This document shows positions 3,391-64,000 of a DNA stretch of 64,000 nt, in pieces. Position 1 is the first letter of the stretch. Each line of letters begins with the position of its first letter. Under the pieces are notes generated by a model that worked only from the letters and a program-made list of their open reading frames with translations, was not told the origin of the DNA and did not search any database. The translations under genes and the position numbers were made by a program. The stretch is from Solwaraspora sp. WMMA2065 (GTDB lineage Bacteria; Actinomycetota; Actinomycetes; Mycobacteriales; Micromonosporaceae): the NCBI RefSeq assembly GCF_030345075.1, contig NZ_CP128361.1:1426001-1490000 (forward strand), given 5' to 3'.

Positions 3391-3457
3391 GCGGGGGCGG
3401 CCGGTGACACGCCGGTGATGACACGCCGGTGGCGGTGGTCGATGTTCCTGGGCCGGG

Positions 3458-3488
3458 TTGACAGCACCGGGGGTGGCCCGCGTACCGT
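3458..3488 (+). promoter_or_regulatory. Predicted housekeeping-type promoter
   Basis: TTGACA at 3458-3463 and TACCGT at 3483-3488 are separated by 19 bases. The first element is a perfect -35 and the second an acceptable actinobacterial -10. It lies 68 bases after the amidohydrolase stop and far upstream of lnt. Confidence 0.45.
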
Positions 3489-3795: not shown

Positions 3796-3824
3796 CGGGG
3801 CGCGGCCGGATCGGCCGCGCCCCG
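3796..3824 (+). terminator. Strong GC hairpin, probable terminator
   Basis: A perfect 13-bp stem (3796-3808 with 3812-3824) with a three-base loop is followed by ATTTCT. It ends the putative small transcription unit 80 bases before the lnt start. Confidence 0.65.
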
Positions 3825-3904
3825 ATTTCTCGTTCGGTGGGCGGTGCGTCGCCGGCTGTGGCTGTCGTCGTCGGTCGGGCGGGCTTGCCGGTAGCCTTCG
3901 TCGG

Positions 3905-6366: not shown

Positions 6367-6422
6367 CGACGGCGCGTGCCATGCTGGACAGGTGACGTGA
6401 CGCCACGTTCGCAGGAGGTGAC

Positions 6423-6968: not shown

Positions 6969-6995
6969 GCGGGCAACGCGGGGCGGGAGCGTGAC

Positions 6996-7032
6996 GATGC
7001 CCCTGACGCCGGCGTACGGCATCAGGGGCGTC
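6996..7032. terminator. Bidirectional terminator between fxsA and rbpA
   Basis: GCCCCTGA at 6999-7006 pairs with TCAGGGGC at 7022-7029, and the stem continues inward (GCCG/CGGC) with one mismatch. It lies between convergent genes and can serve both. Confidence 0.6.
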
Positions 7033-7072
7033 GGGTGTCTGGTCTGCCCGCCGGTCGGCGGGGGCGGGTGGG

Positions 7073-7414
7073 TCAGACGCCGCCGCGCCGGTTGCGGACC
7101 TCCTGCAGACGTTCGGCCAGGATGTCTTCCAGTTCGGCGATCGACCGCCGTTCAAGGAGCATGTCCCAGTGGGTGCGTGGCGGCTTGGCCTTCTTCTGCT
7201 CCGGTTCGCTGCCGTCGACCAGCCGGGCGACGCTGCCGTCGAACTTGCATTCCCAGGTCACCGGCACCTCCGCGTCGACGGCGAACGGGACCTCGAACTG
7301 GTGGCCTTTGGCGCAGAGGTACTCGCGGGTCTGGCGCGGCGCGAGTTCCGTGTTGCGGTCGGACTCGTAGCTGACTGCTCCCAGACGGCTTCCGCGCAGC
7401 ATGCGCTCGCCCAT
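7073..7414 (-). CDS. rbpA: RNA polymerase-binding protein RbpA
   Basis: RbpA binds the primary sigma factor and RNA polymerase and stabilises open complexes in actinobacteria. The 113-residue product shows the whole family pattern. The N-terminal tail is followed by the core domain with its two Cys-containing segments (REYLCAKGHQFEVPF and TWECKFDG), then the basic linker and the sigma-interaction helix (HWDMLLERRSIAELEDILAERL). It is convergent with fxsA, and a sigma-R-like promoter lies upstream. Confidence 0.95.
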   Translation of the reverse strand: MGERMLRGSRLGAVSYESDRNTELAPRQTREYLCAKGHQFEVPFAVDAEVPVTWECKFDGSVARLVDGSEPEQKKAKPPRTHWDMLLERRSIAELEDILAERLQEVRNRRGGV

Positions 7415-7455
7415 GATCGGCTATCCCCTCGGTCGTGGTGCTGGTCTTCAGGTGT

Positions 7456-7482
7456 AACGATGTGCCCGGGGCGGGCGATTCC
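7456..7482 (-). promoter_or_regulatory. Sigma-R-like promoter of rbpA
   Basis: On the minus strand GGAAT (7482-7478) and GTT (7458-7456) are 19 bases apart, close to the GGAAT-N18-GTT pattern of disulfide-stress sigma factor R. The GTT lies 42 bases from the rbpA ATG. rbpA is in the sigma-R regulon of Streptomyces. The assignment here is by motif only. Confidence 0.4.
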
Positions 7483-7658
7483 CGCTGTCAGCGGACGCTG
7501 CCTGGTAGCGGCAGGGCCCGCGGCCCGGACGTGTGCGAGCGTATCCGGCCGATGCTCGTTGCTGCCGTGTCACTGGTGCGCGGACGCCGTCGCCGCCGGG
7601 GTGAAACACGGCGTTAACGAAGTCTGGCACATCGGTGACGATGTTGATGCGATGTAGG

Positions 7659-8798
7659 TCACTGTGCCGGCGCCGCCGGTGGCTTGTCGACCGGCCGCTG
7701 GGCGGTGCTGAGCGCTGCCAGCGCCGTGGCGAGGTCGCTGACCTGACGGGACAGTTCCGTGACCCGGTTCTGGGCGTTGTCACGTTCGGCCCGGGCGGTG
7801 TCGAGCGTGGCGGCGAGTTCCGTCGCGGTGTGTCGGGCCTGTTCGGCGCGGGCGACGGCGGCTGCGGTCTCCGCCCGGGCGGTGTCGGCGTCAACGCGGG
7901 CGGTGTCGGCATGGTGTCGCGCCGCATCGGCGCGCCGCTGCCACTGGTCGATGTCGGCGCGGGCCCGGTGCAGCTCTTCACCCGCGGCGGCGGCTTCTGT
8001 GCGCGCCTGAGCGGCGTCGGCCCGGGCAGCTTCGGCTTGCGCGCCCGCCCGGTCGGCGCGGATGTCGGCCTGCCGGCGGTGGTCGTCGGCGGTGCGTGCG
8101 GCTTCGCTGGCGTCGGCCGCTGCGGCGGTGGCGGCTGCCGCCTCCCGGGTGAGTTCGTCGATGACGCGCCGGTCGTCGTCGTGTTGCCGGGTCAGTTGTT
8201 GCAGTTGTTCACGGACGGTGTCGCGGTCGTGTTCGGCCTGCCGCAGCAGTGCGGCGGCGGCAGCAGCCCGCTGCTGCGCGGCGGCCTGTTCCGTCCGTGC
8301 CTGCGCGGCCTGCTGGCGGGCCGCCGCGGCTTCGACGGTCGCGGTTCCGGCGCGTGCCTCGGCGGTTTCGGCGCGGGCGGCGGCCTGCGCGGCGGCCTGT
8401 TGTGCCTGGGTGGCGGCTGTCGTGGCGGCTTCGGCGAGCTGCCGCGCGTCGTCGCGTTCGGCCTGGGCGGCGGCGAGGGTGGCGGCGGCTTCGGCCCGGA
8501 CTTCGGCGACGCGACGGTCGACGCCGGCTGGGGAGAGTTCGGCGTGCAGTGTCTCGGTGAGGGTGCCGACCATCTGGTCGAGGCGGTCGACGAGTTCCCA
8601 GCTGCGGGCGATCTGGCCGGCGAGACCAGGGGCGTCGCGGCGGCGCATCCGGTTGGCGCGGGAGGCGCGTTGGCAGGCTCCGTCGTTGTCGCGGCAGTAC
8701 CGGAAGGGGCGGCCGGCGGCTGCCCGTTGCGGTACGGGTGCGCCGCAGTGTGCGCAGGGCCGGGTTGCGGTATCGGTGTCCGGCGGCGGGGTGTCCAT
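7659..8798 (-). CDS. Long coiled-coil protein with N-terminal Cys cluster
   Basis: Function is not known. The start at 8798 gives 379 residues. Residues 15-42 hold a CX2C-X16-CX6C set (CAHCGAPVP and YCRDNDGAC) that could bind zinc. Most of the remainder (about 80-360) is an uninterrupted Ala/Glu/Arg/Gln-rich heptad region predicted to be a long coiled coil, ending in Pro/Ala. Similar actinobacterial proteins are annotated only as hypothetical, and a DNA-binding or scaffold role is conceivable. The frame is open upstream to 9041, but that part is not protein-like. Confidence 0.7.
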   Translation of the reverse strand: MDTPPPDTDTATRPCAHCGAPVPQRAAAGRPFRYCRDNDGACQRASRANRMRRRDAPGLAGQIARSWELVDRLDQMVGTLTETLHAELSPAGVDRRVAEVRAEAAATLAAAQAERDDARQLAEAATTAATQAQQAAAQAAARAETAEARAGTATVEAAAARQQAAQARTEQAAAQQRAAAAAALLRQAEHDRDTVREQLQQLTRQHDDDRRVIDELTREAAAATAAAADASEAARTADDHRRQADIRADRAGAQAEAARADAAQARTEAAAAGEELHRARADIDQWQRRADAARHHADTARVDADTARAETAAAVARAEQARHTATELAATLDTARAERDNAQNRVTELSRQVSDLATALAALSTAQRPVDKPPAAPAQ

Positions 8799-8937
8799 CG
8801 CCGCCGAAGTGTAGTTGCCGGTCTGACGCGTACCGCCGTCGTGGTGGCCGCAGGTCTGACTTCGGCTGCTTCGCGGGGTGTGTTCCGGCTGTGCGGCGTA
8901 CGGTCGGCTGGTGGGTTCTGGCGGTGTTGGGCGGTCG

Positions 8938-9507
8938 ATGCGGGAACGGATGGTCGCTGGTGACCTGTACCGTGCCGACGATCCGGAGCTGGTCGAGATG
9001 TCGCTGCGGGCGATGGATCTGACTGAGGAGTACAACCGCACGTCGGCGCGTGACGGTGAGCGGCGCCGGGCACTGCTCGTCGAACTGTTCGCCGAGGTGG
9101 GGGAGGATACCGAGGTACGGCCTCCGCTGTGGGTCGACTACGGCGTTCACATCAGCGTCGGGTCCCGTACCTTCGTCAACTTCGGGCTGGTGGCGTTGGA
9201 TGCGGCGGCCATCAGCGTCGGTGACGATGTGCAGATCGGCTGCAACGTGCAGGTGTTGACGCCGACTCATCCGCTCGCGGCCGGTGCACGCCGGGACAAG
9301 TGGGAGTCCGCGGAGCCGGTCCGGATCGGCGACAACGTGTGGCTGGGCGGCGGGGTGATCGTGCTGCCCGGGGTGGAGATCGGCAGGGACACGGTGGTCG
9401 GTGCGGGGTCGGTGGTGACCCGGAGCCTGCCGGCCGGGGTGCTCGCGGTCGGCAACCCGGCGCGGGTGGTGCGGGATCTGCCGGGCGACCGGACCGGCGG
9501 AGGGTGA
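8938..9507 (+). CDS. Sugar O-acetyltransferase (maltose/galactoside type)
   Basis: The 189-residue protein starts with the Mac domain (MVAGDLYRADDPELVEM) and continues with left-handed beta-helix hexapeptide repeats, including FVNFGLVALDAA, IGCNVQVLTPTHPL with the catalytic His, and IGDNVWLGGGVIVLPGVEIG. This is the maltose/galactoside O-acetyltransferase family, which uses acetyl-CoA. The ATG at 8938 or 8950 could be the start; neither has a strong ribosome site. Confidence 0.88.
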   Translation: MRERMVAGDLYRADDPELVEMSLRAMDLTEEYNRTSARDGERRRALLVELFAEVGEDTEVRPPLWVDYGVHISVGSRTFVNFGLVALDAAAISVGDDVQIGCNVQVLTPTHPLAAGARRDKWESAEPVRIGDNVWLGGGVIVLPGVEIGRDTVVGAGSVVTRSLPAGVLAVGNPARVVRDLPGDRTGGG

Positions 9508-9515
9508 CGCGGGCG

Positions 9516-10376
9516 TCAGTCGGCCTGCAGGGCGTCGACGAGACGCTCGAGCGCGGCCGGTGTGGTCTGGGGCAGGAACAGGGAGGGCTCCACCAGTTCC
9601 AGTTCCAGCACGCACGGCTGGCCGTGGTCGTCGCGGACGAGGTCGACCCGGGCGTAGAGCGGGACGCCGAACGAGTCGGTGACGGTGTCGACGGCTTTGC
9701 GCGCTACGGCGATCAGTTCCGGGTCGGCGACATGTGGCGTGCTGGTTTCCGGCGCGAACAGGTCGTCGATCGGGTCGGTGTGGGGCAACAGGACCCGTTT
9801 GTTCGCGGCGTGGCTGAACCTGCCGGTGAAGAAGACGAGGGGCCATTCTCCGTCGTCGGCCACCGAGGTGAGTCGTGGCTGGACCAGCACGCTGGTGCCG
9901 GCGGCGTGCAGTCTGCGGACGTGGGCGTACGCCTCGTCGTGCTGTGCCGGCCGGTACGAGGCGACGTGCCGGCTTCCCGCGCCGACGGCCGGTTTCACCA
10001 CGAAGTCGCCGGCGGGGAAGTGTGGACGGTGCCCCGGCTCCACGAACGTGGTCGGTGTGACGGGTACCCCGGCCCGGTCGAGGTCAGCGAGGTAGTGCTT
10101 GTCCAGGTTCCACCGCAGCATCGGTAGCGGATTACGCAGATCCGTCACCTGTTCGACGGTTTCCAGCCAGGTGAGGAACTGTCCGAGCCGTTGCGGGTAG
10201 TCCCAGGTCGAGCGCAGGACGGCCCGGTCGTAGTCGGCCCACCGCACCGCAGGGTCGTTCCACACCACCACGTCGACGGCGAGGCCGGCCTGCCGTAGCG
10301 CCGGCAGGGCCAGCGGTTCGTCCTCGTCGTGTCCGCGTGCCTCGTGGGCGGAGACCCATGCCAGCCGGGTGACCAT
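9516..10376 (-). CDS. ATP-grasp domain protein
   Basis: The start at 10376 gives 286 residues. The central region has FVVKPAVGAGSRHVASY (ATP-grasp lysine and Gly loop), VLVQPRLTSV, and near the end ARVDLVRDDHGQPCVLELELVEPSLF, where Asp and Glu bind metal. The fold resembles RimK or glutathione-synthetase-like carboxylate-amine ligases; the substrates are unknown. It converges on the acetyltransferase gene with eight bases between. Confidence 0.75.
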   Translation of the reverse strand: MVTRLAWVSAHEARGHDEDEPLALPALRQAGLAVDVVVWNDPAVRWADYDRAVLRSTWDYPQRLGQFLTWLETVEQVTDLRNPLPMLRWNLDKHYLADLDRAGVPVTPTTFVEPGHRPHFPAGDFVVKPAVGAGSRHVASYRPAQHDEAYAHVRRLHAAGTSVLVQPRLTSVADDGEWPLVFFTGRFSHAANKRVLLPHTDPIDDLFAPETSTPHVADPELIAVARKAVDTVTDSFGVPLYARVDLVRDDHGQPCVLELELVEPSLFLPQTTPAALERLVDALQAD

Positions 10377-10413
10377 GCGTTGATCGTACGGCCCGGACGG
10401 TGGACGGGCCGGG

Positions 10414-10743
10414 TCAGCGGTTGTCGCCGCTGCCACCGAGTACGCCACGGTTCTGGCGGCTGGCCAGCTTGGCCAGGTTGCCGGTCGCGATGTCGTTGAG
10501 TGACAGGTCGAGGTAGGCGGCGAGGGTCGCCACGTACCACAGGACGTCGCCGAGTTCCTTGGCGATGTCGGCCCGGTCGAGTCTGGACTCGTCGCTGTCG
10601 TGGTCTCGGACCCATTTCTTGAACTTCTCGGCGATTTCGCCGGACTCGCCGACGAGTCCGAGTACCAGGTGGAGCAGTTCGTTGTTCTTGTCGCGTGGCG
10701 TGGCGGTGCGCAGGGCGCCGCGCTGGTAGTCGTCCAGGTCCAT
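10414..10743 (-). CDS. MazG-like nucleotide pyrophosphohydrolase
   Basis: The 109-residue protein (ATG at 10743) has the all-alpha NTP pyrophosphohydrolase motifs GESGEIAEKFKKW and DIAKELGDVLWYVA, giving the ExxE...ExxD magnesium site. Such single-domain MazG-like enzymes remove non-canonical or excess nucleoside triphosphates. It lies 37 bases downstream of the ATP-grasp gene start and is read in the same direction. Confidence 0.85.
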   Translation of the reverse strand: MDLDDYQRGALRTATPRDKNNELLHLVLGLVGESGEIAEKFKKWVRDHDSDESRLDRADIAKELGDVLWYVATLAAYLDLSLNDIATGNLAKLASRQNRGVLGGSGDNR

Positions 10744-10797
10744 GGCGGACCAGTATGGCGGTTCACGCTCGCCCGCGCCGCTCCGCACCCTGTCGCC

Positions 10798-10835
10798 GGA
10801 TTATCGGATTATCGGAAACGGCTATCCAATAATCC
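10798..10835. repeat. AT-rich direct and inverted repeats in a 238-base gap
   Basis: GGATTATC occurs twice (10798 and 10806), and the second copy, GGATTATCGG, faces CCAATAATCC at 10826-10835 with one mismatch and a ten-base spacer. A second loose inverted repeat (CACCATAA and TTATGTGGTG) follows at about 10866-10890. The gap separates divergent genes, so an operator is plausible. No cognate regulator is adjacent. Confidence 0.4.
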
Positions 10836-52985: not shown

Positions 52986-53507
52986 TCAAGACTCACTACT
53001 CTCTGTCATTCGCAACTTGGCGCGGTGGTGTGCTTCCCATGCCAGGGCAGCCTTGGCCATACCGTTCTTCCAGGGGTTCGGGTCGGCGGCGGCGATCTGC
53101 GCCCACATCCGGGCGAGGGCGGACGCGAAGACATCGACAGTCCGGGTCGGGGCACTGGTCCAGGCCGAAGCTGGGCTCATGCACGCTTCGGCCTGCTCCG
53201 GGCTGTGGCCGGCAAAGATCAGGCGCACGATCAGACAGCTCGGGTCGATGAACCCAGCGCCGAGCGTCGGCCATGCCCAGTCGATCAGGCGGGCCGCGTC
53301 CCCGTCGATGAGCACGTTGTCCGGGCTGCAGTCGGTGTGCAGGAGGGTGTCACCGCGCAGCAGGGGCAGATCGGCCGGCTCGACGTACGCCGCCCATCGC
53401 CGCTCGGCCCGTTTGAGCTGAGGCAGTTCGGGACACCAGAGCAGCGCCAGGCGCTGCATCGTGTCGACGACCTTGGGCAGGTCGGCGTACGCGTGAGTGC
53501 ACAGGTC
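52986..53507 (-). pseudogene. APH-type kinase, 3' fragment cut by IS remnants
   Basis: The frame encodes the C-terminal half (about 173 residues) of an aminoglycoside phosphotransferase-like kinase: LLRGDTLLHTDCSPDNVLID (catalytic loop), AARLIDWAWPTLGAGF (metal motif) and a helical tail. The N-lobe is missing; upstream of about 53507 the sequence is transposase remnant. The merged open frame from 53996 is a chimera and not a real protein. Confidence 0.75.
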
Positions 53508-53723
53508 GATCGCGAGTTGGCCCTTCGTGCGGAACTCCGCGTGCGGGGCAGCCCGGTCCGCGCGGCGGTATCCGGGTCGGTGACTTGCTCGGCGGGGATC
53601 CACTGCCGGGCGGTGATCCGGGCGTGGCCGGTCCGTTCCCGCGCGTAGGCCAGGTAGACCGTGTTGATGCCTTTTGGAGACCCGACCGGCGCAGCCCATG
53701 TACTGCCGTTTCACCCCGGACAT
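53508..53723 (-). pseudogene. IS701-like DDE transposase remnant
   Basis: On the minus strand SGVKRQYMGCAGRVSK and, in another frame, INTVYLAYARERTGHARITA then RQWIPAEQVTDPDT, plus PHAEFRTKGQLAI, are pieces of an IS701-family DDE transposase core (normally QYTGTAGR.. and VYLAYA..). At least two frameshifts break it. It abuts the kinase fragment at about 53507, so its insertion or deletion removed the kinase 5' end. Confidence 0.6.
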
Positions 53724-53786
53724 CGCCGTACCCTGCGGGGCCGGCCCGAGTCGTTGCCGGGCCTGCCGTAACGCGCTGCCACTGGG

Positions 53787-53996
53787 GCCGGCGTCGCCGC
53801 TGGTGGTGCCCGGCCGCCCTCCGGTGTCGGTCTCGGCCTGCTTCACCCAGACCCGCAACGCCTCGGGATGGGCCCCGAGCTGGTCAGCGATCCGCCGGAT
53901 CGCGCCCACCGCGGACGCCGGGTCCCGGCGGGCCTCGACCGCCAACCGGGTCGCGCGCTCACGCAGCTCGTCGGAGTACTTCTTCGGTGCGGGCAT
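53787..53996 (-). pseudogene. IS3 family OrfA transposase remnant
   Basis: The first 70 residues from the ATG at 53996 are an IS3-type OrfA HTH: PAPKKYSDELRERATRLAVE, then GAIRRIADQLGAHPEALRVW and VKQAETDTGGRPGTTSGDA. The leucine-zipper part and OrfB are absent. A GGAGC site and leader precede it. Confidence 0.75.
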
Positions 53997-54082: not shown

Positions 54083-54658
54083 TCAGCGGTTGGCGCCCGG
54101 CTTCCACAGGATGTCGCCCTGGTCCCGGTTGGCGTGGCGAGCCAGGATGAACAGCAGGTCCGAAAGCCGGTTAAGGTACTGGGCCGTGTCGCGGTTCATT
54201 GTGCCGGGGTACTCGGACAGGGCCTGCCAGGTGGAGCGTTCGGCGCGGCGGGCCACGGTACGGGCCTGGTGCAGGAACGCGGCGCCAGGTGTCCCGCCGG
54301 GCAGAACGAAGCTGCGCAGCTTGGTCAGGGCCTCGTTGTAGTGATCACACTGCCCTTCGAGGAAGGTAACGTACCCGACGTTGACGCGCAGCTGTGGCAT
54401 CGCGGGGTCGGGCGGGGAGGTCGGCGTGCACAGGTCGGCACCGACGTCGAACAGGTCGTTCTGGATGCGTTCCAGGAGGGTCCGCACGTCGGCGTCGAGG
54501 CCACCGACGGCGATCGCTACGCCGATGACCGAGTTCGTCTCGTCCACGTCGGCGTAGGCCTGCAAGCGGCTGTCGGTCTTGCCGACCCGGCTCATGTCGC
54601 CGAGAGCGGTCGTACCGGTGTCACCGGTCTTGGTGTAGATGCGGGTCAGGTTGACCAT
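54083..54658 (-). CDS. PduO-type cob(I)alamin adenosyltransferase
   Basis: This enzyme makes adenosylcobalamin from cob(I)alamin and ATP. The 191-residue helical protein has the N-terminal TRIYTKTGDTGTTALGDMSR (ATP-binding), AYADVDETNSVIGVA, LPGGTPGAAFLHQARTVARR and NRLSDLLFILARHAN, all PduO landmarks. It is the last gene of the long minus-strand operon, and its start overlaps the kinase stop by 13 bases. This may tie cobalamin supply to the radical SAM enzyme upstream. Confidence 0.93.
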   Translation of the reverse strand: MVNLTRIYTKTGDTGTTALGDMSRVGKTDSRLQAYADVDETNSVIGVAIAVGGLDADVRTLLERIQNDLFDVGADLCTPTSPPDPAMPQLRVNVGYVTFLEGQCDHYNEALTKLRSFVLPGGTPGAAFLHQARTVARRAERSTWQALSEYPGTMNRDTAQYLNRLSDLLFILARHANRDQGDILWKPGANR

Positions 54659-55578
54659 GGGTGCTCCTGTAGGGAGAGAGAGGCGGCGAACCGTTCGCCG
54701 AGTTCGCGGGCGTGGTCGGCGGCGGCCGGGCCACGCAGCGGATCCGGCGCTTCGGAGAGGAAGACCAGGGCGAGCATCAGGGCGGCGTCGAGGCGGCAGG
54801 CCAGCGTCGCCGGGTCGTCGTCGGGCGGGAGTGGGCTGGTGCGGACGTAGCCGTCGCGGATGTCGGCCAGGTCGAGTTCGTTTTCCGGGTAGCGGGCGTA
54901 CTCGATGAGCCGGCCGAACTCCACGGTGGCGTCGCCCAGCAGGGTGTTGGACCAGTCCAGCAGCGCCTCGACGCGGCCGTTGCACCGCCGGACGTTGGCG
55001 CTGCGCACGTCGAGGTGGACCAGCCCGGCCGTGCCGATCCGGTCGAGTGCCGCGCTCAGCGCGGACGCGGCCGGCGGTGCGGGCCAGTCACTGATCAGGC
55101 ATCCTACCTCGGCCCAGCGGCGCAGGACACGGGCGGTGAGCACCTGGGGAGTGCCGGTTTCCTCCGCTGCCACCGGAGTCAGCGGCGGTGGCGGGAGACG
55201 GTGCAGCCGGGCCAGGGTAGATCCGAGCAGGCGACCGTCGAGTCGGCTGCCGTCGTCGGGGACGTACCGCGCCATGAGCATGTCGGGTTCACCGTCGTGG
55301 TCGGACAGGTGCAACTCGATCGGCTCGGCCACCGCGAACCCGGCTGCGGCCAGATGCCGAGTGATCCGGTACTCCTGGATCAGCAAGTTCCGGACGTCCA
55401 CGTGCGGATCGTTGACGTTCGAGGAGAAGCGCTGCCCGGCCAGCCGCAGAGCGACCGGGCAGCCGTCGGGCGCCACTGCTCGGAAGACGGTGAACTCCAG
55501 GCCCTGGCCGACCAGTTGCAGATCGTCGAGCTTCCAGCGGGAGGTGAGGTGAGCGCGCAGGACATCGTGTTCGGTCAT
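54646..55578 (-). CDS. APH-fold phosphotransferase in the LanB operon
   Basis: The 310-residue protein is a kinase-fold phosphotransferase: QGLEFTVFRAVAPDGCPVAL (ATP site), LIQEYRITRHLAAAG, then GLVHLDVRSANVRRCNGRVE (catalytic loop HLDVRSANV) and ALLDWSNTLLGDATVEFGRL. The substrate is unknown. It could phosphorylate the pathway product (self-resistance) or an intermediate. It is eight bases from the MFS stop and overlaps the adenosyltransferase start. Confidence 0.82.
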   Translation of the reverse strand: MTEHDVLRAHLTSRWKLDDLQLVGQGLEFTVFRAVAPDGCPVALRLAGQRFSSNVNDPHVDVRNLLIQEYRITRHLAAAGFAVAEPIELHLSDHDGEPDMLMARYVPDDGSRLDGRLLGSTLARLHRLPPPPLTPVAAEETGTPQVLTARVLRRWAEVGCLISDWPAPPAASALSAALDRIGTAGLVHLDVRSANVRRCNGRVEALLDWSNTLLGDATVEFGRLIEYARYPENELDLADIRDGYVRTSPLPPDDDPATLACRLDAALMLALVFLSEAPDPLRGPAAADHARELGERFAASLSLQEHPWST

Positions 55579-55586
55579 CGGTTTCC

Positions 55587-56798
55587 TCAGCGGGTACGGG
55601 GGTCGCGCCGTAGCACGGGAACGACGGCCAGGCAGAGCACCAGTAGCAGCGCCCCGCCGGTAAGGAAGGCCGCGCGCGGGCCGGCGGCGTCACCGATCGC
55701 GCCCAGTGCGAGCGCGCCCACCGGCATCATGCCCCACGCGACCAGCCGGTATGCGCCCGTGGTGCGGCCTAACAGGTGGTCGGGGATCACGCCCTGGCGC
55801 AACGACACAGCTATGACATTCCACATCATAACCCCCATACCCGATGCGGCGTACGCCAGCGCCACCACGATCACCTCACGGGTGGCCGCCACTCCAACCC
55901 CGGCGAGGCCGATCAGTGCCAGGCTGGCGCCGAGTGTTGACGCACGGCCGAACCGCCGGGCGGCCCGCGCCGCGACCACACCGCCGAGTACCCCACCGAG
56001 CGCGCCGCCGGCCACCAGCGCGCCGTACGCCGCCGACGGCAGGTCCAGAACGTCGCGGACGAGTAAGACAAACACCGCGACTTGGCCGAGGTAAACCGCG
56101 TTGATGAGTCCGGCGGACACCGTGATCAGGCGCAGCAGCCGATCCCGGAGCAGAAATTCGATGCCCTGGCGGATCTCGGCCACCAGATCGGGCTTCGTCC
56201 TAGAGCCCGGATCCGGCCGGGCGTCCGGCAGCCCGCGCAGCACCAGCGCGGACCCGGCAAACGACACCGCGTCCAGTACGAAGGGCACCGTCCGGCCGAC
56301 CGCGAACAGCACCCCACCGAGTAGATGGCCCAGCAGGTCGCGGCCGATCGTCTGCACAGCGAACAGCCGGCCGTTGGCCGTCTCCAGATCCTCGGCAGCC
56401 ACCACTCGCGGCAGGTAGGCGAACGAGGCGCAGTCAAAGACCACCTCACCGATACCGAGCAGCAGCGCCACCCCCACCAGCGGCCAGAACGACATCCATC
56501 CCGCGATCAGCAGCAGCACCGCGGCGCTCATCGTCGCCATGCGCAGCACGTCGGCCAGTACCATCAGCCGGCGTCGCTCGACACGGTCGGCGTACACGCC
56601 CGCCGGCAGTCCGAACAGCAGCCAGGGAACGGTGGTGGCCGCAGTGACCACGGCCACCTGGAATCCGTCGTCGAGCACCGCAGCGGCCAGCAGCGGCAGC
56701 GCAGCGAACCGGACGCCGTCACCGACCCCGGAGACGCCAACCGCGGCCACCAGTCGCCGGTACGCCGTCCGCGACCTCATCGGGGCACCGGTCGTCAC
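55587..56798 (-). CDS. MFS exporter in the LanB operon
   Basis: The 403-residue protein has 12 predicted helices, motif A-like GLPAGVYADRVERRRLMVLA and the second-half ARAARRFGRASTLGASL, as in MFS_3 (enterobactin-exporter-like) carriers. The GTG start at 56798 overlaps the LanB-like stop (GTGA). It most likely exports the product of the operon. Confidence 0.87.
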   Translation of the reverse strand: MTTGAPMRSRTAYRRLVAAVGVSGVGDGVRFAALPLLAAAVLDDGFQVAVVTAATTVPWLLFGLPAGVYADRVERRRLMVLADVLRMATMSAAVLLLIAGWMSFWPLVGVALLLGIGEVVFDCASFAYLPRVVAAEDLETANGRLFAVQTIGRDLLGHLLGGVLFAVGRTVPFVLDAVSFAGSALVLRGLPDARPDPGSRTKPDLVAEIRQGIEFLLRDRLLRLITVSAGLINAVYLGQVAVFVLLVRDVLDLPSAAYGALVAGGALGGVLGGVVAARAARRFGRASTLGASLALIGLAGVGVAATREVIVVALAYAASGMGVMMWNVIAVSLRQGVIPDHLLGRTTGAYRLVAWGMMPVGALALGAIGDAAGPRAAFLTGGALLLVLCLAVVPVLRRDPRTR

Positions 56799-59347
56799 CC
56801 GTGCCACCCGGCCGAAAACAGCGCGCACCGAAGCTCGGTCGTGTACCGGACGCCGCCGGTCTCGAACCACCGCTCGTCCGGGGACGGCAGCATCTCGGAC
56901 ACCTCCAAAAGCCCCGCGCCGCGACGGGCGATCCGGCACAGCTGGCGTACCAGCAGCGGCGCCTCCCAGTCGACGTAGACGGGTTTGGGCTCACCGGGCG
57001 CCTTGACGAAGACGTGACGCGGCAGGCCCAACTCGGCGCGCAGCCGGCACGCCGCGAGATATTCCGCAGCGTCATCGGCGGCGATCCGGTCGCCGGAGAG
57101 GGTCACACCACGCAGCCGCTCGGACGGCACCCGCCAGGTCTCCCGTTGCAGGATCACCCGCCCGCACCGGATACGGGGCACGTGCGTCAGGGAGGCGGCC
57201 CGCAATGCCACGCCGCCGAAATGGCGCGGAAAGGCGAACGGTGACAGCGGATCCTGAAGGATGCTTGGGCCTCCGGCTGGCGGCGCCATCAGCCGCAACC
57301 GTCCCTCGACGTGGTGGGCCCGCAGTTCCAGGCGCCCGCCATTGATGATCAGGTACAGCTGGGTGGGCTGCAGAACCAGGTCGCGATCCTGCGCCGAACG
57401 CCCGAACACTTCGAGATCGTGGCAGGGGTAGACCAGCTGGGTGGAGGACTTGTCCGGGTGCCCGCGGGACAGGTTGACCAGGATCTCGTCGCCGTCGAGC
57501 AGCGACTGGTACCCCCGGTACACCTCCGGCAGCAGGCGCGGGTCGAGCTCCTGCACCAGGGGACCGAAGCTGGTGTGCGTGATTACTTCACGGACCGCAT
57601 GGCAGTCGCCGATCACGGCGGTGAACGCGCCGCGCGCCAACGCGGCCTGGCTCGGGGCGGCGAACAGGACATCGGGGTTGCACAACGCGGGCGGGTCGGC
57701 CGGGTGCGCCGCGATGATCCCCTCCAGTACGTCCCGGGGAACCACCACCTCCGGGCGGTCGGTGTCCGGCCCGATCAGCGCGTGCAGGATCACCTCGTCC
57801 AGCTCGACCAGTTCCGCCTCGATCGGCGCGCAGTCGCGGGCCAGCCGATCCAGGTCGGCGAACGAGCAGGCGTACAGGCGGTCAAGTGGCACCTCCACGC
57901 CGGTGCCGAACGTGTCGCGCACCCACCGGGTGAGCACCTCGCGTTCACGCCGCATCCGCAGGCGCGGCCCAGCCAGCACGAGCTCATAGACGACGGCGAG
58001 CTCGGTGGTGAGAAAGTCGGCCACGTCGGGTCCGATGGTCAGCCCGCGCAGCCGGCTGTGCGCCTCCTCGAACAGGATGCTGCGGTCGGCGTAGTGCAGG
58101 CCACTGTTGCGGTTGCCGGGCACCCCGGTCAGCTCCTCGAAACGCCGCTTGGCTGCGGTTAGCACGGCGGGGCGCTGGGCCGGGGGCGCGGCCGAGAAAT
58201 GCAGCAGGTCCTGTTCGAACGCGTCGACGGCGGCCAGCATCGGCGCGGCGTGCGCGGCGTCGTGAGGCAGCAGCTCCCGCAGGCGGCGCAGCGGCGCGGC
58301 GTCGCCGACCGGCACCTCGAACTCGGCCGTGAGCCACTTATCGTCCACGGCACGCCGCAAGACCTCCTCGAAAGGTTCCGGGAATGGCCATTCCGCGCGC
58401 AGGTCGGCGACGGTACGAGCGCCCACGGCGCGTTCCCACAGCCACTGTTCACCGGGTGTCACGTCCCAGTCGCCTTGCTGTCGAAAGTGCCACTCGGCGT
58501 CCAGACCGTCGCGGGTAGTGAAGGCGTACGCCTCGATGCGACCGTCACGTAGGAACGTGAGTGGTCGCCGGCGGGGCCGGACGTGGTCGAGCATGCCGGG
58601 CATCTCCCCGGCGGCGAGCGCGAGCCGTTCGGCCGCCCAGTGGGTGAAGAACGCTGTGCGCCGCAGCGGCCCTTCCCCCGTCCAGGTGATGCCGGGCGTC
58701 GTGCCGACCCGGCCCACCGTGAACGGGCCGAAATGCGAGTGTGTCTCGTTCTTGGTGGTGATCCGTTGCAGATACATGGTGAGTAGGTCGGTCATCTTGC
58801 GGGTGTGCCGTCCCGGCTCGCCGTGGTAGCCGTCCAGCCAGGCCGCAAGAGTGGGATAGGCGGCGTCGTTGGACAGCAGCAGCACCTGGCGCAGAGAGTC
58901 CTCGATGAAGGCCCGCGCCACCGCGTCGCCGGCGGCGTCAAGCCGTTCCCGGTGCTGGTCGCGGAACACCTGCCAGTCGGTGTGCAGCGCGGCGGCCGCG
59001 TCCCGGTACGCGCGTAACGGACCGCTCTCGGTGTCGGGCAGGGCGTCGAGTACCGGGGCGAGGTCCTCGGTGGTGATCGGGCGGAGCTGCCCGATCTCGG
59101 AGGCGAGTCGCTGCGTGCCAGCCTTACGGTGCCGGCGGAGCACCGCCTTGGCGGTGGCGGCCAGTTCGGCCAGACGCTCACGGCGTTCGGTCAGCGAGAC
59201 CGCCCGAGACGCCTGTTCGGCGTCGACAAGCGGATCGAGCATCTCCAGCGGATATCCCGCCTGCCGCAGCACGACGGTCGGCACCAGATGCCAGGCGTGG
59301 TCGGGCGCGTTCATCTCGACGCTTGCCGGATGTGTGTCAGTGGTCAT
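56795..59347 (-). CDS. LanB-like protein 1 (lantibiotic dehydratase N-terminal domain; PEARL-like)
   Basis: LanB proteins use glutamyl-tRNA or other aminoacyl-tRNA to modify peptides. This 850-residue protein has the LanB N-domain only and ends without a SpaB_C elimination domain. Landmarks are ITTKNETHSHFGPFTVGRVG (about 195-214), NRNSGLHYADRSILFEEAHS, and the C-terminal HVFVKAPGEPKPVYVDWEAP, LLVRQL and YTTELRCALFSAG. Size and motifs fit small LanBs such as peptide aminoacyl-tRNA ligases (PEARLs) or split glutamylating LanBs. The ATG overlaps the PHP stop (ATGA). A paralogue lies at the window edge. Confidence 0.82.
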   Translation of the reverse strand: MTTDTHPASVEMNAPDHAWHLVPTVVLRQAGYPLEMLDPLVDAEQASRAVSLTERRERLAELAATAKAVLRRHRKAGTQRLASEIGQLRPITTEDLAPVLDALPDTESGPLRAYRDAAAALHTDWQVFRDQHRERLDAAGDAVARAFIEDSLRQVLLLSNDAAYPTLAAWLDGYHGEPGRHTRKMTDLLTMYLQRITTKNETHSHFGPFTVGRVGTTPGITWTGEGPLRRTAFFTHWAAERLALAAGEMPGMLDHVRPRRRPLTFLRDGRIEAYAFTTRDGLDAEWHFRQQGDWDVTPGEQWLWERAVGARTVADLRAEWPFPEPFEEVLRRAVDDKWLTAEFEVPVGDAAPLRRLRELLPHDAAHAAPMLAAVDAFEQDLLHFSAAPPAQRPAVLTAAKRRFEELTGVPGNRNSGLHYADRSILFEEAHSRLRGLTIGPDVADFLTTELAVVYELVLAGPRLRMRREREVLTRWVRDTFGTGVEVPLDRLYACSFADLDRLARDCAPIEAELVELDEVILHALIGPDTDRPEVVVPRDVLEGIIAAHPADPPALCNPDVLFAAPSQAALARGAFTAVIGDCHAVREVITHTSFGPLVQELDPRLLPEVYRGYQSLLDGDEILVNLSRGHPDKSSTQLVYPCHDLEVFGRSAQDRDLVLQPTQLYLIINGGRLELRAHHVEGRLRLMAPPAGGPSILQDPLSPFAFPRHFGGVALRAASLTHVPRIRCGRVILQRETWRVPSERLRGVTLSGDRIAADDAAEYLAACRLRAELGLPRHVFVKAPGEPKPVYVDWEAPLLVRQLCRIARRGAGLLEVSEMLPSPDERWFETGGVRYTTELRCALFSAGWHG

Positions 59348-60279
59348 GTGCCTGCCTTGGTCACGCGGGCGGTCCGGCGCTCGTGCAGGGCGTCAACGAT
59401 CGCCATTGGGTCGGGGCCCACGACCGGGACCCGACCCGGCGTGGGCACCCAGGGTTTGAGCCGTGGGCCGTGATAGTCGGAGCCGGTCGTGGCGAGCAGG
59501 CCCACGGCCGCGCTGAGCTGTGCCAGCCGGGCACTGTCGGCCGGCCGGTGCCAGCTGGTCCACACTTCGATTCCGGCCAGGCCGGCGTCGGCCCAGGTGT
59601 CCAGCAGGACACGGCACGCGGCGTCGTCGCGTGCGGACAGCAGGGCCGCCGGGTGGGCCAGGACCGCCACGGCGCCGGCTTCGCCGATCCACGACAGGAC
59701 CTCGGTCAGTGCGGGCCGCCAGGGCGCGGGCACGTGCAGTGGCTGGCCCGGGCGGCACCAGTCCCGCGCGATGGCGCCGTACGTGCCGGGCCCGTAGATG
59801 GCGAACCGCGGGTCGTCGCCAGCGGTGCGGGCCAGCAGCGCCAGGTAGTCGCCCACGTAGGCGACCCGGTCGTCGCCGAGTGCGGCGTCGACGTCTTCCT
59901 CGGTGAGCGGCACCCCGATCGCCTGCACCCGCTCAATCCAGGCTCGCCACCAGGTGGCCTCGGCGTCGTGTACCGAGCGCACCCGCCGGGCGAAGGCGGC
60001 GTCGGCGGGGTCGACGAAGTATGCGAGGCAGTGCACCTCCTCACCCTCCCAATCGGCGGTGATCTCGCAGCCGGCCACGACGGTCGCCGCGCCACCCACC
60101 GCCGCGCTGAACGGCGCGATGCCGCTCATCGTGTTGTGGTCGGCCACCGCCACCACACGCAGGTCGGCAGCCAGGCAGTACGCCGCAGCCTGTGCTGGTG
60201 CGTCGTCACCGTCGGAACGCGAGGTGTGCACGTGCAGGTCGACCGGAGTGGCGACGGCCGACGGGACGCCACGGGTCAC
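59344..60279 (-). CDS. PHP domain hydrolase
   Basis: The 311-residue protein has PHP metal motifs VDLHVHTSRSDGDD (HxH), VVAVADHNTMSGI (DH), AGCEITADWEGEEVHCLAYF, AVLAHPAAL and a late TTGSDYHGP (DxH). It resembles RNase AM (YciV)-like or phosphoesterase PHP proteins that hydrolyse phosphoesters. In this operon it may remove a phosphate or nucleotide from an intermediate. GTG at 60279 overlaps the upstream stop (GTGA). Confidence 0.85.
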   Translation of the reverse strand: MTRGVPSAVATPVDLHVHTSRSDGDDAPAQAAAYCLAADLRVVAVADHNTMSGIAPFSAAVGGAATVVAGCEITADWEGEEVHCLAYFVDPADAAFARRVRSVHDAEATWWRAWIERVQAIGVPLTEEDVDAALGDDRVAYVGDYLALLARTAGDDPRFAIYGPGTYGAIARDWCRPGQPLHVPAPWRPALTEVLSWIGEAGAVAVLAHPAALLSARDDAACRVLLDTWADAGLAGIEVWTSWHRPADSARLAQLSAAVGLLATTGSDYHGPRLKPWVPTPGRVPVVGPDPMAIVDALHERRTARVTKAGT

Positions 60280-61325
60280 GACGGCATCGGTAGCGAACGC
60301 CGCCAGGCCGCGGACAGCCAGCGCTCGTACTCGGTACCCTCGGGCTTGTCGACCACCATGCACAGTGGTTCGAGGACGCGACCGGGCCCGCCCCGCAACC
60401 CACCGTGAATCATGGTTAGGTTGTGGCCGATCAGCAGGTCACAGTGTTCACCGGGGGCGGCGACCTCCCAGCGCTCGCGCAGCTCGCTCCACGTCGAACC
60501 GGTCGCCGACAGCATCATGTGGCAGAACAGGCGCGCGGCGTCGCCCTCGCATCGCCCGCACGCACAGCGCCGTGACAGCGGCACGGCGGCCGGGAAGCGC
60601 TCGGCGTCCGCCGAACTCAGCGGGCTCTCGCTATGGTGGAAGGACAGGCCGTGCCACATCGTCTCGCCCAACCCCAGCATCGCGCCATAGGAGGGGTAGG
60701 GGCAGCCGTGCTCCGGCTGGCGCAGCACGGCCGTACGCAGGTTCTCCCCCAGCCACCGGGCGGCCGTGACCGTGTCGTCGGCGTCCTTGATGCCCCGTGC
60801 GCCCAGCACCTCGTGCACGATCGAGATCCAGTCGTAGTACGTGGTGACGCTCAAGCCCTCGCCGGGGTCGGCCAGGAAGATCCCCTGGTACATCTTGTGC
60901 GCCGGGGTCGTGGTGTATCCGGTGGTCCCGAACTCACGCATGGCCGGGTCCCACTCGGGCATGTCCAGCCGGCTGGGCGTCAGGTAGGAGCAGTGCTGGC
61001 CGTCGTGGTGGGGTAGCAGGGTGCGGGTGAAGAATCCGGCCGGCACGTAGGTGCTCTGGGGCTTATCCACCTCCAGCCGCATGTCTGCGGGAGCACCGCG
61101 GAAAATCAGTGTCCGGCGGATCCGCTGTGCCAGATCCAGGGCGATCCGTCGGCTCTCATCGACGCCCAGCCGCAGCCGTCCGATCCGGAACACCGCGAAC
61201 CCGATGTCGTGCAGCAGGTCGACGGCCCGGCCGCTGAGCCGGTCGGCGAGGTCCGGACGTTCCCGCTCGGCGGCCGACGGCAGGTCGGAGCAGTCGATGA
61301 ATGCGGCGGCGGGGGCGAATCTCAT
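60276..61325 (-). CDS. Putative Fe(II)/2-oxoglutarate oxygenase
   Basis: I assign this by motif only. The 349-residue protein has H106-H-D108 in LLPHHDGQHCSYL (HxD), a distal H307 in NLTMIHGGLRGGPGR with R316 placed to hold 2-oxoglutarate, and a TauD/jelly-roll-like layout. It also has a Cys set at C254, C256 and C259 (RRCACGRC), unusual for the family and possibly a metal site. It lies between arginase and PHP genes with ATGA and GTGA overlaps, so it is surely part of the pathway. Hydroxylation or desaturation of an amino acid side chain is the likely role. Confidence 0.55.
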   Translation of the reverse strand: MRFAPAAAFIDCSDLPSAAERERPDLADRLSGRAVDLLHDIGFAVFRIGRLRLGVDESRRIALDLAQRIRRTLIFRGAPADMRLEVDKPQSTYVPAGFFTRTLLPHHDGQHCSYLTPSRLDMPEWDPAMREFGTTGYTTTPAHKMYQGIFLADPGEGLSVTTYYDWISIVHEVLGARGIKDADDTVTAARWLGENLRTAVLRQPEHGCPYPSYGAMLGLGETMWHGLSFHHSESPLSSADAERFPAAVPLSRRCACGRCEGDAARLFCHMMLSATGSTWSELRERWEVAAPGEHCDLLIGHNLTMIHGGLRGGPGRVLEPLCMVVDKPEGTEYERWLSAAWRRSLPMPS

Positions 61326-62407
61326 CGTTGCTCCTGAGTACTGCCGGGGGTCCAGGGTGCAAGTCCGGAGGGTTGCGAGTCGGTGCGGAACAGGAAGTTG
61401 AACAGCAGGTGCGCGGCGATCTGGGCGGTGCTGCCCGACGGGTCGTAGCGGGGGGAGACCTCGGCGATGTCGAGCGCGACGACGGGCAATGCGCGCAGTT
61501 CCTCGTACACGTCTAGCAGTTCGCCGACGCTGATGCCGCCCATGGTCACGTGCCCGGTGCCGGTGGCCGACGCGCTGTCGAGCACGTCGATGTCGAGCGA
61601 GATGTACACGGTATCGCATTGTTCTCCGAGCCGCGCGATCACCGGGGCAAGCGCGGCCGCCGCGCCGTCGCGGCGGATCTGGGCGCCGGGCACCACGTGG
61701 AAGCCCCGGTCGAGCAGGCTGCGGAACTGGTCGTACTTGGTGACATCACCGACGCCGACGAATGCGATGTCTTCGGGCCGGATGCCGGGAATCTCGCTGA
61801 TCCGGCGGGAGTTCGACCCGTGGTAGAGCGGCCCGTGCAGCACATTTACGTTGCCGAAGTCGAAGTGGTGGTCGATGTTGATGAATCCGAACCGCTTCGG
61901 GCCGTTGTCGAGCCGGCCGGCCCGGAACCCGGCGAACGTCGGGAACGTGCAGGAATGGTCGCCGTTGAGGAAGATAACGTGCGGGGCGGCGGCGCTGACC
62001 CGGCGTGCCTCGGCGGCGACCGCCTGGAACGTCTTGACCGTGTTGGTGGGGTAGGTGTGCAGGTCGCCCACGTCGGCGATCCGGGGTGCCCGGTAGCGAA
62101 AGGTGTCGCCGCGGCGGGTGTCCAGCATCTGCCACTCGCCGAGGCTGTTCAGGTAGCTGGCGAAGACCAGGCTTGCCTGGCGGATTGCCCGGGGGCCCTC
62201 GGCCGCGCCGGGTCGGGAGCTGGCCGTGCCGTCGAACGGTATGCCGGCCACGGCCCAGCCTTCCCCGCCGAGATCGGGGGTGGCGCCACGGGCGTCGGGC
62301 GCGCCGAACAGCGTACCCAGTCCCGCCCAGCCGGGCAGCGGGTCCTGTTCGAAGTCGTCAGGTTTGACGCTGTTCTGTAGGGCCTCAAAATCTGGTAGCT
62401 CGCTCAT
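61322..62407 (-). CDS. Arginase/agmatinase family hydrolase
   Basis: Ureohydrolases split guanidino groups to amine and urea with two Mn2+. The 361-residue protein has FLNGDHS (H151), FINIDHHFDFG (D179, H181, D183) and YISLDIDVLD (D272, D274), so both metal sites are intact. The N-terminus (about 45 residues) is longer than usual. Substrate choice cannot be read. In a peptide-modifying operon a peptide arginase (Arg to Orn) or an agmatine-like guanidino substrate is possible. The ATG overlaps the radical SAM stop (ATGA). Confidence 0.88.
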   Translation of the reverse strand: MSELPDFEALQNSVKPDDFEQDPLPGWAGLGTLFGAPDARGATPDLGGEGWAVAGIPFDGTASSRPGAAEGPRAIRQASLVFASYLNSLGEWQMLDTRRGDTFRYRAPRIADVGDLHTYPTNTVKTFQAVAAEARRVSAAAPHVIFLNGDHSCTFPTFAGFRAGRLDNGPKRFGFINIDHHFDFGNVNVLHGPLYHGSNSRRISEIPGIRPEDIAFVGVGDVTKYDQFRSLLDRGFHVVPGAQIRRDGAAAALAPVIARLGEQCDTVYISLDIDVLDSASATGTGHVTMGGISVGELLDVYEELRALPVVALDIAEVSPRYDPSGSTAQIAAHLLFNFLFRTDSQPSGLAPWTPGSTQEQR

Positions 62408-63750
62408 CGCGCCTCCGAATCGCTGGTTGCGGCGAGGGCACCTGCCAACCCGCCGCGGACGATGCGGTGGGCGGTGGCGACCTTTTCGTGGAACAGTTCC
62501 CAGCTGCGCTGCGGGGTCAGGTACGCCGGGCGGTAGACGACCGGCGCGTCTTCGCGCCAGTTGGCGAAGTCCCAGTCGAAGATCCGGCCGCGCAGCCGGG
62601 GGAAGTCCGGTACCAGGGGGTACGGGACGAAGTTGTAAAGGTTGAACAGCCACAGCCGGTCGCGGTTCTCGTCGAGCCAGTCCAGCGTCACCCGGTGCGA
62701 CTCCTCGGTCTCCTCGTCGAGGCCGCCCATCAGATTAAGCACCACTTTGAAGCCCGCGTCGCTGAGCTCGCGGATCCGGCCGGTGTAGTGGTCGAGTCCG
62801 CGCGACAGCTTGCCCAGCCGCTTGAGCATCCCCGAGTCCGCCGATTCGAAGCCGAGTTCCACCGCCACCACGCCCAGTTCCTGCATCTGGTCGAGGACCT
62901 GCTGCTTCACCTGCAGGACATGGGTCTGCACGATGAACCGGTAGCCGGGTCGGTCACAGAACACGTCGATGAGGTTGCGCACTGCCTCACGGGACTGGCC
63001 GAACGTCTTGTCGCCGATGTAGATCAGCCGGGTATCCGGGAATCGGGTGGCGAGATCGTCGACCTCGGCCTCCAGGGCCTTGCGATCCACCAAGGTAAGG
63101 CTCTTACTCCACGCGTCACCGCAGAAAGCGCACTCGTATAGGCAGCCGTGGCTGGCGTTGAGGCGCAGCAGCGGCACCTGGCCCCGATAGCCGCCGAGGT
63201 GCCGGTAGTCGGGCATCCAGGTGATGCGCTCCTCCGACAGGCCCTTGACGAAGGGTTTCTCGCTGGCCCTGCGGCTGTAGTCGAGGGCAACGAGCCGCCG
63301 GACGAACCTGGTGTCGAGCTGTCCTCGGTGCACCAGGTGTACCGAGCCTTCCGGAGCCAGCGGGGCCATGTTTCCGCCGAGGACCACCCGGCGGCCGGCG
63401 GCCTCCAGGTGGCCGGCGACCTCTAGGGCGAGCCGGAAATTCTGCGCCAGCGGGGAGCACAGCACCAGGTCGCCGGGTTTGGTCGCGGCCATCAGTGGCT
63501 CGGTGCAGGCGGCGGCGTCGGCGGGGATCCGCGACAGGTCCTGAAACGTGGAGTCGATGCCGGCGGTGTCCAGTAGAGCCGTCAGGTGGGCGACCCAGAG
63601 TGGCATCTCCCACAAGCCGTCGGCTGGGATGAAGTACTCGGGAAGGAACGACCGGAACGCCTGGTCGTAGGCGAGGTAGTAGTCGGACAGGCGGCTGTCG
63701 GGCGCCGCGGTGGATGGGAAGGGCAGTTGGACCACACAGCCGCGCAGCAA
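62404..63750 (-). CDS. Radical SAM enzyme with N-terminal B12-binding-like domain
   Basis: The 448-residue protein has a Rossmann-like N-terminal domain (about 50-150; GDLVLCSPLAQNFRLALEVA then AGRRVVLGGNMAP), without the DxHxxG cobalamin motif. The radical SAM core has C203, C207 and C210 in HGCLYECAFCGDAW, followed by LIYIGDKTFG and VELGFESADSGMLKRLGK. It belongs to the B12-binding-domain radical SAM group, whose members methylate, rearrange or cyclise unactivated carbons. TTG start at 63750 with GGAGG four bases upstream. It lies 21 bases after LanB-like protein 2. Confidence 0.85.
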   Translation of the reverse strand: MLRGCVVQLPFPSTAAPDSRLSDYYLAYDQAFRSFLPEYFIPADGLWEMPLWVAHLTALLDTAGIDSTFQDLSRIPADAAACTEPLMAATKPGDLVLCSPLAQNFRLALEVAGHLEAAGRRVVLGGNMAPLAPEGSVHLVHRGQLDTRFVRRLVALDYSRRASEKPFVKGLSEERITWMPDYRHLGGYRGQVPLLRLNASHGCLYECAFCGDAWSKSLTLVDRKALEAEVDDLATRFPDTRLIYIGDKTFGQSREAVRNLIDVFCDRPGYRFIVQTHVLQVKQQVLDQMQELGVVAVELGFESADSGMLKRLGKLSRGLDHYTGRIRELSDAGFKVVLNLMGGLDEETEESHRVTLDWLDENRDRLWLFNLYNFVPYPLVPDFPRLRGRIFDWDFANWREDAPVVYRPAYLTPQRSWELFHEKVATAHRIVRGGLAGALAATSDSEAR

Positions 63751-63771
63751 AGTTCCTCCAGTGGGTGCGTG

Positions 63772-64000
63772 TCAGGGGAGCTGCGCGCCGGTACCCCGGG
63801 AGAAGAGAGCACAGCGCAGCTCGCTCGTGTATCGCTTGCCGTCGAGGTCGAGCCAGAGGTCCGTACGGGCGGGGAACATCTCGCTGAAGTCCACGGGGCG
63901 TCCGGTTCGACGCGCCAGCCGGCACACCTGCCGCACCAATAGCGGCGACCTCCAGTCGACGAAGATGGGTTTGGGCTCCCCGGGGATCTTCACGAAGCCG
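63772..64000 (-). CDS. LanB-like protein 2, C-terminal part
   Basis: The frame runs off the right edge; 76 residues are seen. GFVKIPGEPKPIFVDWRSP, LLVRQVCRLARR, DFSEMFPARTDLWLDLDGKR and YTSELRCALFSRG match position by position the last 75 residues of LanB-like protein 1. This is a clear paralogue, also ending without an elimination domain. It is the first visible gene of the operon, and the precursor peptide gene may lie beyond the edge. Confidence 0.85.
   Translation of the reverse strand, partial: GFVKIPGEPKPIFVDWRSPLLVRQVCRLARRTGRPVDFSEMFPARTDLWLDLDGKRYTSELRCALFSRGTGAQLP

Follow-up and report, generated by a model that had tools for sequence, protein, structure and literature searches.

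A rare actinomycete operon may pair two PEARL-like LanB proteins with a portable enzyme triad

Near the right-hand end of the window, our term for the 64,000-nucleotide stretch of the Solwaraspora sp. WMMA2065 genome analyzed here (C1:1426001-1490000 of a single 6.74 Mb contig), lies a minus-strand operon encoding, in order, a LanB-like protein (LanB1), a radical SAM enzyme, an arginase-family protein, an orphan protein termed Oxy, a PHP-family phosphoesterase, a second LanB-like protein (LanB2), an MFS exporter, an APH-fold kinase, and a cobalamin adenosyltransferase. We lean, by a narrow preference, toward the view that the product of this operon is a small aminoacylated metabolite, which its exporter would carry out of the cell, with the two LanB proteins acting on a small core and no ribosomal carrier taking part. 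This view draws on features that were observed directly, namely the gene set, its conservation, its active-site residues, and an exchange of ligases and phosphatases between lineages. A wider proposal, on which we are evenly divided, holds that the radical SAM, arginase-family, and Oxy proteins form a portable triad making a free pharmacophore, which unrelated and interchangeable amide ligases then cap; here, these would be twin peptide aminoacyl-tRNA ligases (PEARLs) operating with neither a carrier nor a nonribosomal peptide synthetase (NRPS).

Organization of the operon

The genes and their assignments are as follows (window coordinates):

63772..64000, minus strand: 3' end of LanB1, candidate PEARL-type ligase (PF04738 101.8 bits, no PF14028)
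62404..63750, minus strand: radical SAM enzyme, 448 aa, probably cobalamin-dependent (PF04055)
61322..62407, minus strand: arginase-family ureohydrolase, 361 aa (PF00491 203.8 bits)
60276..61325, minus strand: Oxy, 349-aa orphan, possible oxygenase of the Fe(II)/2-oxoglutarate type (unmatched in Pfam, NCBIfam, and the PDB)
59344..60279, minus strand: PHP phosphoesterase, 311 aa (PF02811 31 bits)
56795..59347, minus strand: LanB2, 850 aa, candidate PEARL-type ligase (PF04738 100.2 bits, no PF14028)
55587..56798, minus strand: MFS exporter, 403 aa (PF05977/PF07690)
54646..55578, minus strand: APH-fold kinase, 310 aa, proposed self-protection kinase (PF01636)
54083..54658, minus strand: cob(I)alamin adenosyltransferase, 191 aa, accessory (PF01923; TIGR00636 above cut-off)

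LanB1 is truncated by the window edge and starts 2.3 kb past it; the complete gene occupies C1:1489772-1492306 (locus L004:1773-4307) and encodes 844 aa. Eight of the nine proteins have Pfam matches, to the LanB N-domain (twice), radical SAM, arginase, PHP, MFS, APH, and cobalamin adenosyltransferase families. Five 4-nt ATGA/GTGA overlaps follow one another from radical SAM through MFS (radical SAM/arginase, arginase/Oxy, Oxy/PHP, PHP/LanB2, and LanB2/MFS), just as the initial annotation had reported. Its description of nine overlapping genes holds at these junctions and between kinase and adenosyltransferase (13-nt overlap), but not between LanB1 and radical SAM or between MFS and kinase, which are separated by gaps of 21 and 8 nt.

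The gene order recurs in related loci

A single Oxy scan of a genome contig collection yielded 10 related loci. In seven of them (L014, L015, L016, L017, L020, L021, and L022), the eight genes from LanB1 through the kinase keep an unchanged order. Because this order recurs, the grouping is more than chance, and the nine-gene minus-strand operon claimed for this DNA is both present in the genome and largely mirrored elsewhere. The adenosyltransferase has a full-length match in L014-L016, a match spanning 42 aa in L017, and none seen in L020-L022. The other three loci (L018, L019, and L023) hold the triad with no LanB or PHP match, and the triad is also present in two further genomes of the family, G996 and G1094.

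Oxy is rare. It was found in 2 of 396 phylum genomes, one of the two being a remnant, and in 7 of 354 family genomes, a count that includes one stump and one distant homologue. Among 394 class genomes, only the Solwaraspora genome itself and the remnant in G369 fell below E 0.005, and a wider Oxy profile run against the 396 phylum genomes again returned only these two. A radical SAM profile at E 1e-25 picked out a single genome of the 394, that of Solwaraspora. LanB2 searched against plasmids gave 16 records, none reaching 80% coverage. Two decayed copies of the operon were observed, one with pieces of Oxy, LanB2, and MFS (G369:C1, L044, about 8186-9223) and one with an Oxy C-terminal stump beside an intact kinase (G1031:C1, L090, about 9763-10823).

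The operon gene set was not met in the open-licence literature that we searched, most subscription papers lying outside the reach of that search, and this agrees with the earlier remark that it is not a recognized known cluster.

LanB1 and LanB2 retain PEARL residues

LanB1 and LanB2 are 48% identical to each other. Both contain PF04738, and the elimination domain PF14028 was not detected by Pfam in either. For BhaBC-Trp, two papers report Y205, R208, R429, and R34 as tRNA-CCA residues and D558, E575, H577, F755, K763, E813, and R815 as ATP-site residues (PMC11962472, PMC12945691). Working from motif and spacing, and not from an alignment of the reference sequences, we placed the equivalents in LanB2 at 12 positions, all of them invariant in 16 of 16 operon LanB sequences: the tRNA-CCA residues Y192, R195, R422, and R28; Y419; and the ATP-site residues D559, D581, H583, F780, K788, E838, and R840. 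D581 is an aspartate where BhaBC-Trp has a glutamate, and the F-K spacing (8) and K-E spacing (50) are equal in the two proteins.

Twelve other LanB N-domain rows stood in the same alignment, one of them misread (L039) and two partial (L034 and L025); the PEARL set occurs in two of the 12 (L036 and L041) and not in the other ten. A canonical LanB from the Solwaraspora genome (L006) is without it. With PF14028 absent and the mapped tRNA-CCA and ATP-site residues kept throughout, the initial assignment of the pair as PEARL-type ligases is borne out to the extent that we regard both as PEARL-like proteins with predicted ligase activity. The two PEARL-set rows belong to a pair of LanB N-domain genes in M. 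okii (L095, G399:C21:58000-77900) that adjoins NRPS, polyketide synthase (PKS), and TauD-family genes, probably a SnaE-like cluster with two PEARLs; the precursor-free PEARL SnaE was itself found in NRPS/PKS surroundings.

The PF04738 annotation would also suit a class I lanthipeptide or thiopeptide cluster of the usual sort, in which dehydration depends on Glu-tRNA. The observation that the initial annotation named as its refutation, a SpaB_C elimination gene (PF14028) with a lanthipeptide precursor just outside the window, was not made. PF14028 occurs at about 0.17, 4.52, and 5.25 Mb in this genome and the operon at 1.48 Mb, so they are more than 1.3 Mb apart, and no precursor was seen beside LanB1. 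Of 11 genomes searched for PF14028, three gave no hit: S. naganishii (G759) and S. hiroshimensis (G401), both carriers of the full LanB operon, and M. mirobrigensis (G398). The PEARL ATP-site residues, moreover, are absent from most of the other LanB proteins of these genomes; glutamylation does not require ATP. Given the distance to PF14028, we rejected this identity, to which we now attach almost no probability. Three other LanB regions of the Solwaraspora genome (C1:157116-166761, 4523985-4529196, and 5248432-5251525) each have PF14028 nearby and are probably ordinary class I lanthipeptide or thiopeptide loci.

No conserved scaffold peptide lies near the operon

The LanB proteins could alternatively serve a pearlin pathway with a scaffold peptide encoded in trans, in which they would extend the carrier C-terminus, the triad would modify residues, and a distant protease would release the product. 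The complete set of PEARL residues accords with such a role, as does the tmo cluster, in which a B12 radical SAM enzyme is found together with a PEARL (PMC9303977). Small open reading frames (ORFs) were compared around 11 loci (3.5 kb upstream and 3 kb downstream), with filtering against composition noise and leaving out the sister pairs L018/L019 and L020/L021 and ORFs inside operon genes. Of the 13 pairwise matches that resulted, 7 were confined to L015-L017 and fell in the region of the LanB1 start, while the other 6 each linked just two loci; none was common to three unrelated loci, and none is conserved beyond close sister loci. No protease family was matched among the nine operon proteins (Pfam, NCBIfam), whereas the tmo cluster has a protease. 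The triad, furthermore, is present where no LanB was found: PF04738 was not found in triad-bearing M. mirobrigensis, nor in G996 and G1094, these two in a search whose own controls gave no match, though the same family search matches other genomes.

Because there is no conserved small ORF, no protease among the nine proteins, and a triad in genomes without a LanB match, a ribosomal scaffold peptide for LanB1 and LanB2 is unlikely, and we judge its supply in trans to be a minority reading with perhaps a modest chance of being right. The same observations disfavor the scaffold-peptide pathway, of the ribosomally synthesized and post-translationally modified peptide (RiPP) kind, that the initial annotation had put forward; the short precursor gene sought to the right of the window did not appear. 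Upstream of LanB1 are what we take to be a DUF6879-like fragment, a DUF397-like ORF, and an XRE-like regulator. Also rejected as a match was an arginase-containing RiPP cluster (PMC12026744), judged from the accessible part of that paper.

Ligases and phosphatases are exchanged around the triad

In two Catenulispora loci (L018 and L019), the genes after the triad encode an MFS protein, a FemAB-like protein, a kinase 34-35% identical to that of the window, an S9 peptidase, and a LuxR-type regulator; the FemAB-type protein and the peptidase take the place of the LanB proteins and PHP. The L019 FemAB-like protein scores 29.3 bits against PF04339, above the cut-off of 27, and its L018 counterpart found no match in the PDB. 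G1094 (L088) has a different order of triad, kinase (50%), ATP-grasp protein, FemAB-like protein, HAD phosphatase, second FemAB-like protein, and MFS. The ATP-grasp protein (L088:11089-12342) has the C-terminal domain of L-amino acid ligase, and both FemAB-like proteins exceed the PF04339 cut-off (39.9 and 62.7 bits); together with the HAD phosphatase, these three proteins replace the LanB pair and PHP. Ligase type differs by lineage, with twin PEARL-type proteins in eight, a FemAB-type protein in Catenulispora, and the ATP-grasp and two FemAB-type proteins in G1094. L023 and L091 have the triad, and no ligase, kinase, or exporter match was detected in them.

In a tree of the concatenated triad proteins, drawn with a root for display only and containing L023 as a long branch, Catenulispora falls within the LanB-bearing loci. 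The seven-row clade, five rows of which bear LanB, has 98/100 support, and a five-row group has 90/95, below the starred level. The simplest reading of these sequences is that Catenulispora would have dropped the LanB pair along with PHP and acquired its FemAB-type gene. FemAB-type proteins of known pathways use aminoacyl-tRNA (PMC12945691).

The LanB proteins might instead be nitrogen or ester donors, adding residues from aminoacyl-tRNA temporarily for later trimming and leaving a product without an amino-acid cap. According to PMC9303977, the nitrogen donor that PEARLs employ in the ammosamide pathway is glycyl-tRNA. There is, however, no ammosamide-type oxidase among the nine genes, and the replacement of the LanB pair elsewhere by FemAB-type and ATP-grasp proteins fits plain amide capping better. 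We therefore give little credence to a donor role and continue to prefer capping of a small core.

The triad enzymes

The CxxxCxxC motif of the radical SAM enzyme is invariant in 11 of 11 members. A B12-binding Pfam domain matches weakly in 8 of the 11 (best E 3.7e-4), the enzyme of the window not among them, the nearest PDB sequence is AprD4, and the NCBIfam relatives are PhpK, AprD4, and BchE, all below cut-off. The enzyme is probably cobalamin-dependent.

Membership of the arginase-family protein in the ureohydrolases follows from its PF00491 score together with six residues, presumed to bind metal and unchanged across all 11 sequences, which we take to form the Mn-ligand motif of the family. 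Its nearest PDB relatives are agmatinase 2, guanidinobutyrase, and 3-guanidinopropionase; proclavaminate amidinohydrolase (1gq6) ranks seventh of 13.

Oxy matched nothing in Pfam, NCBIfam, or PDB sequence profiles (E up to 10). For this reason, the label of putative Fe/2OG oxygenase in the initial annotation must be called a guess, and it stays a weak one. H106, H107, D108, H307, R316, and four cysteines are invariant in nine of nine sequences, including a 27% homologue; H106-x-D108 with H307 would be candidates for the HxD...H triad of an Fe(II)/2-oxoglutarate oxygenase, and R316 for its 2OG arginine. Retained in that homologue, among others, are Cys 254, 256, 259, and 268, K144, Y164, and N302, whereas H111, H225, H230, H231, and H301 are not kept. 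A TauD profile aligned to Oxy at the distal-His motif scored 23.9, compared with a mean of 13.0 for 60 column shuffles, one of which exceeded it, and 12.5-17.3 for unrelated operon alignments. An AlphaFold2 model built from 11 sequences had a pLDDT of 56.6, too low for use, and a PDB fold search with this low-confidence model returned nothing at E 0.001 or better. The TauD match is suggestive, and Oxy is perhaps an Fe(II)/2-oxoglutarate-type oxygenase. The locus of the 27% homologue (L089, G1076:C244, 2270-16100) also holds thymidylate-synthase-like, HAD, TENA, radical SAM, nucleoside-phosphorylase, deaminase, and epimerase genes and looks like a nucleoside-type pathway.

Kinase and PHP phosphoesterase

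We infer a protective role for the kinase and a phosphatase role for PHP. Kinase residues H188, D190, N195, and D208 are invariant in 10 of 10 sequences, and the intact kinase that G1031 keeps beside its Oxy stump is as expected for a protection gene. Nine presumed metal ligands of PHP are invariant in eight of eight sequences.

Alternatively, PHP might release tRNA from an ester-linked LanB2 intermediate and not act on the kinase product. All eight LanB loci have PHP, and no copy was detected in L018, L019, L023, L088, or L091; a single open frame spans PHP and LanB2 in S. hiroshimensis; and its NCBIfam relatives include RNase RNM and a nucleoside bisphosphate phosphatase. The S. hiroshimensis frame, however, retains an ATG at the usual LanB2 start, which leaves a true fusion unproven, and the HAD phosphatase in the LanB-less L088 operon suggests a phosphatase role at this position. 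Published PEARLs, moreover, are described in PMC12945691 as removing the tRNA without a partner. On balance we find tRNA release improbable and retain the phosphatase role for PHP.

Surroundings of the operon

Directly downstream of the operon is a chimeric minus-strand ORF (window 52986-53996) that begins with a transposase helix-turn-helix and has a weak APH kinase match below cut-off, perhaps an insertion remnant. At the far end of the window, positions 1-10000 show strong GC skew (0.16 to 0.30) with negative AT skew (to -0.37), and two minus-strand ORFs there have no Pfam match. No tRNA genes were found in the window, in L004, or in 9 of 10 related loci; L018 has one tRNA-Pro.

Discussion

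In the pathway whose substrates, step order, and product we infer here, the radical SAM enzyme, ureohydrolase, and Oxy would assemble or modify a small core resembling an amino acid and possibly derived from guanidine. LanB1 and LanB2 would each use ATP to activate a carboxylate of the core and then couple it to the amino group of aminoacyl-tRNA. The APH kinase would mask the product with phosphate and the PHP phosphoesterase would unmask it, with the MFS protein exporting the product and the adenosyltransferase serving the cobalamin enzyme.

Several points weigh against this pathway and its extension to other lineages. The radical SAM enzyme of the window itself has no B12-binding Pfam match, and kinship with RNase RNM means that PHP could be a nuclease-type hydrolase. 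No carrier was seen near the operon, and no search for one was made in the rest of the genome. At 26.0 bits, the FemAB match of L018 falls short of the cut-off, which Pfam sets at 27. A PEARL extends a carboxylate, whereas a FemAB enzyme acylates an amine; the swapped ligases therefore cannot form the identical bond, and the products would be related but different. Finally, the loci with the triad alone could make another product.

If the proposal is correct, PEARLs act here with neither a ribosomal scaffold nor an NRPS, and the related loci amount to a natural experiment in exchanging amide-bond machinery around one conserved triad. The operon would then be a lead to a kinase-protected metabolite and to PEARL-type ligases for small molecules. 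It would also counsel caution in annotation, as a "lantibiotic dehydratase" without PF14028 should not always be filed as a RiPP gene.

Among known systems, clavulanic acid biosynthesis pairs proclavaminate amidinohydrolase with clavaminate synthase, which resembles the adjacent arginase-family and Oxy genes here, if Oxy is indeed an Fe/2OG enzyme. No beta-lactam-forming family occurs among the nine genes, however, and Oxy is unmatched to any Fe/2OG family. PEARLs have been described as extending ribosomal scaffold peptides, with SnaE as the case from an NRPS pathway.

The tmo pearlin cluster of Tistrella mobilis combines a PEARL with a cobalamin radical SAM enzyme and a transporter, a set similar to the PEARL-like proteins, probably cobalamin-dependent radical SAM enzyme, and exporter of the window operon, but it has a carrier (TmoA), a DUF692 enzyme, and a metalloprotease (TmoG), none of which is seen in the window operon, and the available text mentions one PEARL and no arginase (PMC9303977). 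The AmmB and BhaB PEARLs of the ammosamide and Bha pyrroloquinone pathways also occur several to a cluster, each adding one residue, but they act on the carriers AmmA and BhaA, and no such carrier is seen in the window operon (PMC12945691, PMC11962472). The FemABX-like transferases PacB, VlmA, DhpH-C, and BD-12 Orf11 form amides from aminoacyl-tRNA on small molecules (PMC12945691), whereas the operon relies on a LanB-fold pair, with none of its nine genes encoding a protein of the FemAB type. SnaE, from the sna NRPS-PKS cluster of Stackebrandtia nassauensis, shares with LanB1 and LanB2 a LanB N-domain without an elimination domain, a small non-ribosomal substrate, proposed in our case, and the lack of a carrier gene in the cluster (PMC11212132). 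SnaE extends an NRPS product, whereas no NRPS or PKS is among the nine proteins here, the flanks being only partly annotated; the operon has two LanB proteins together with the radical SAM-ureohydrolase-Oxy triad.

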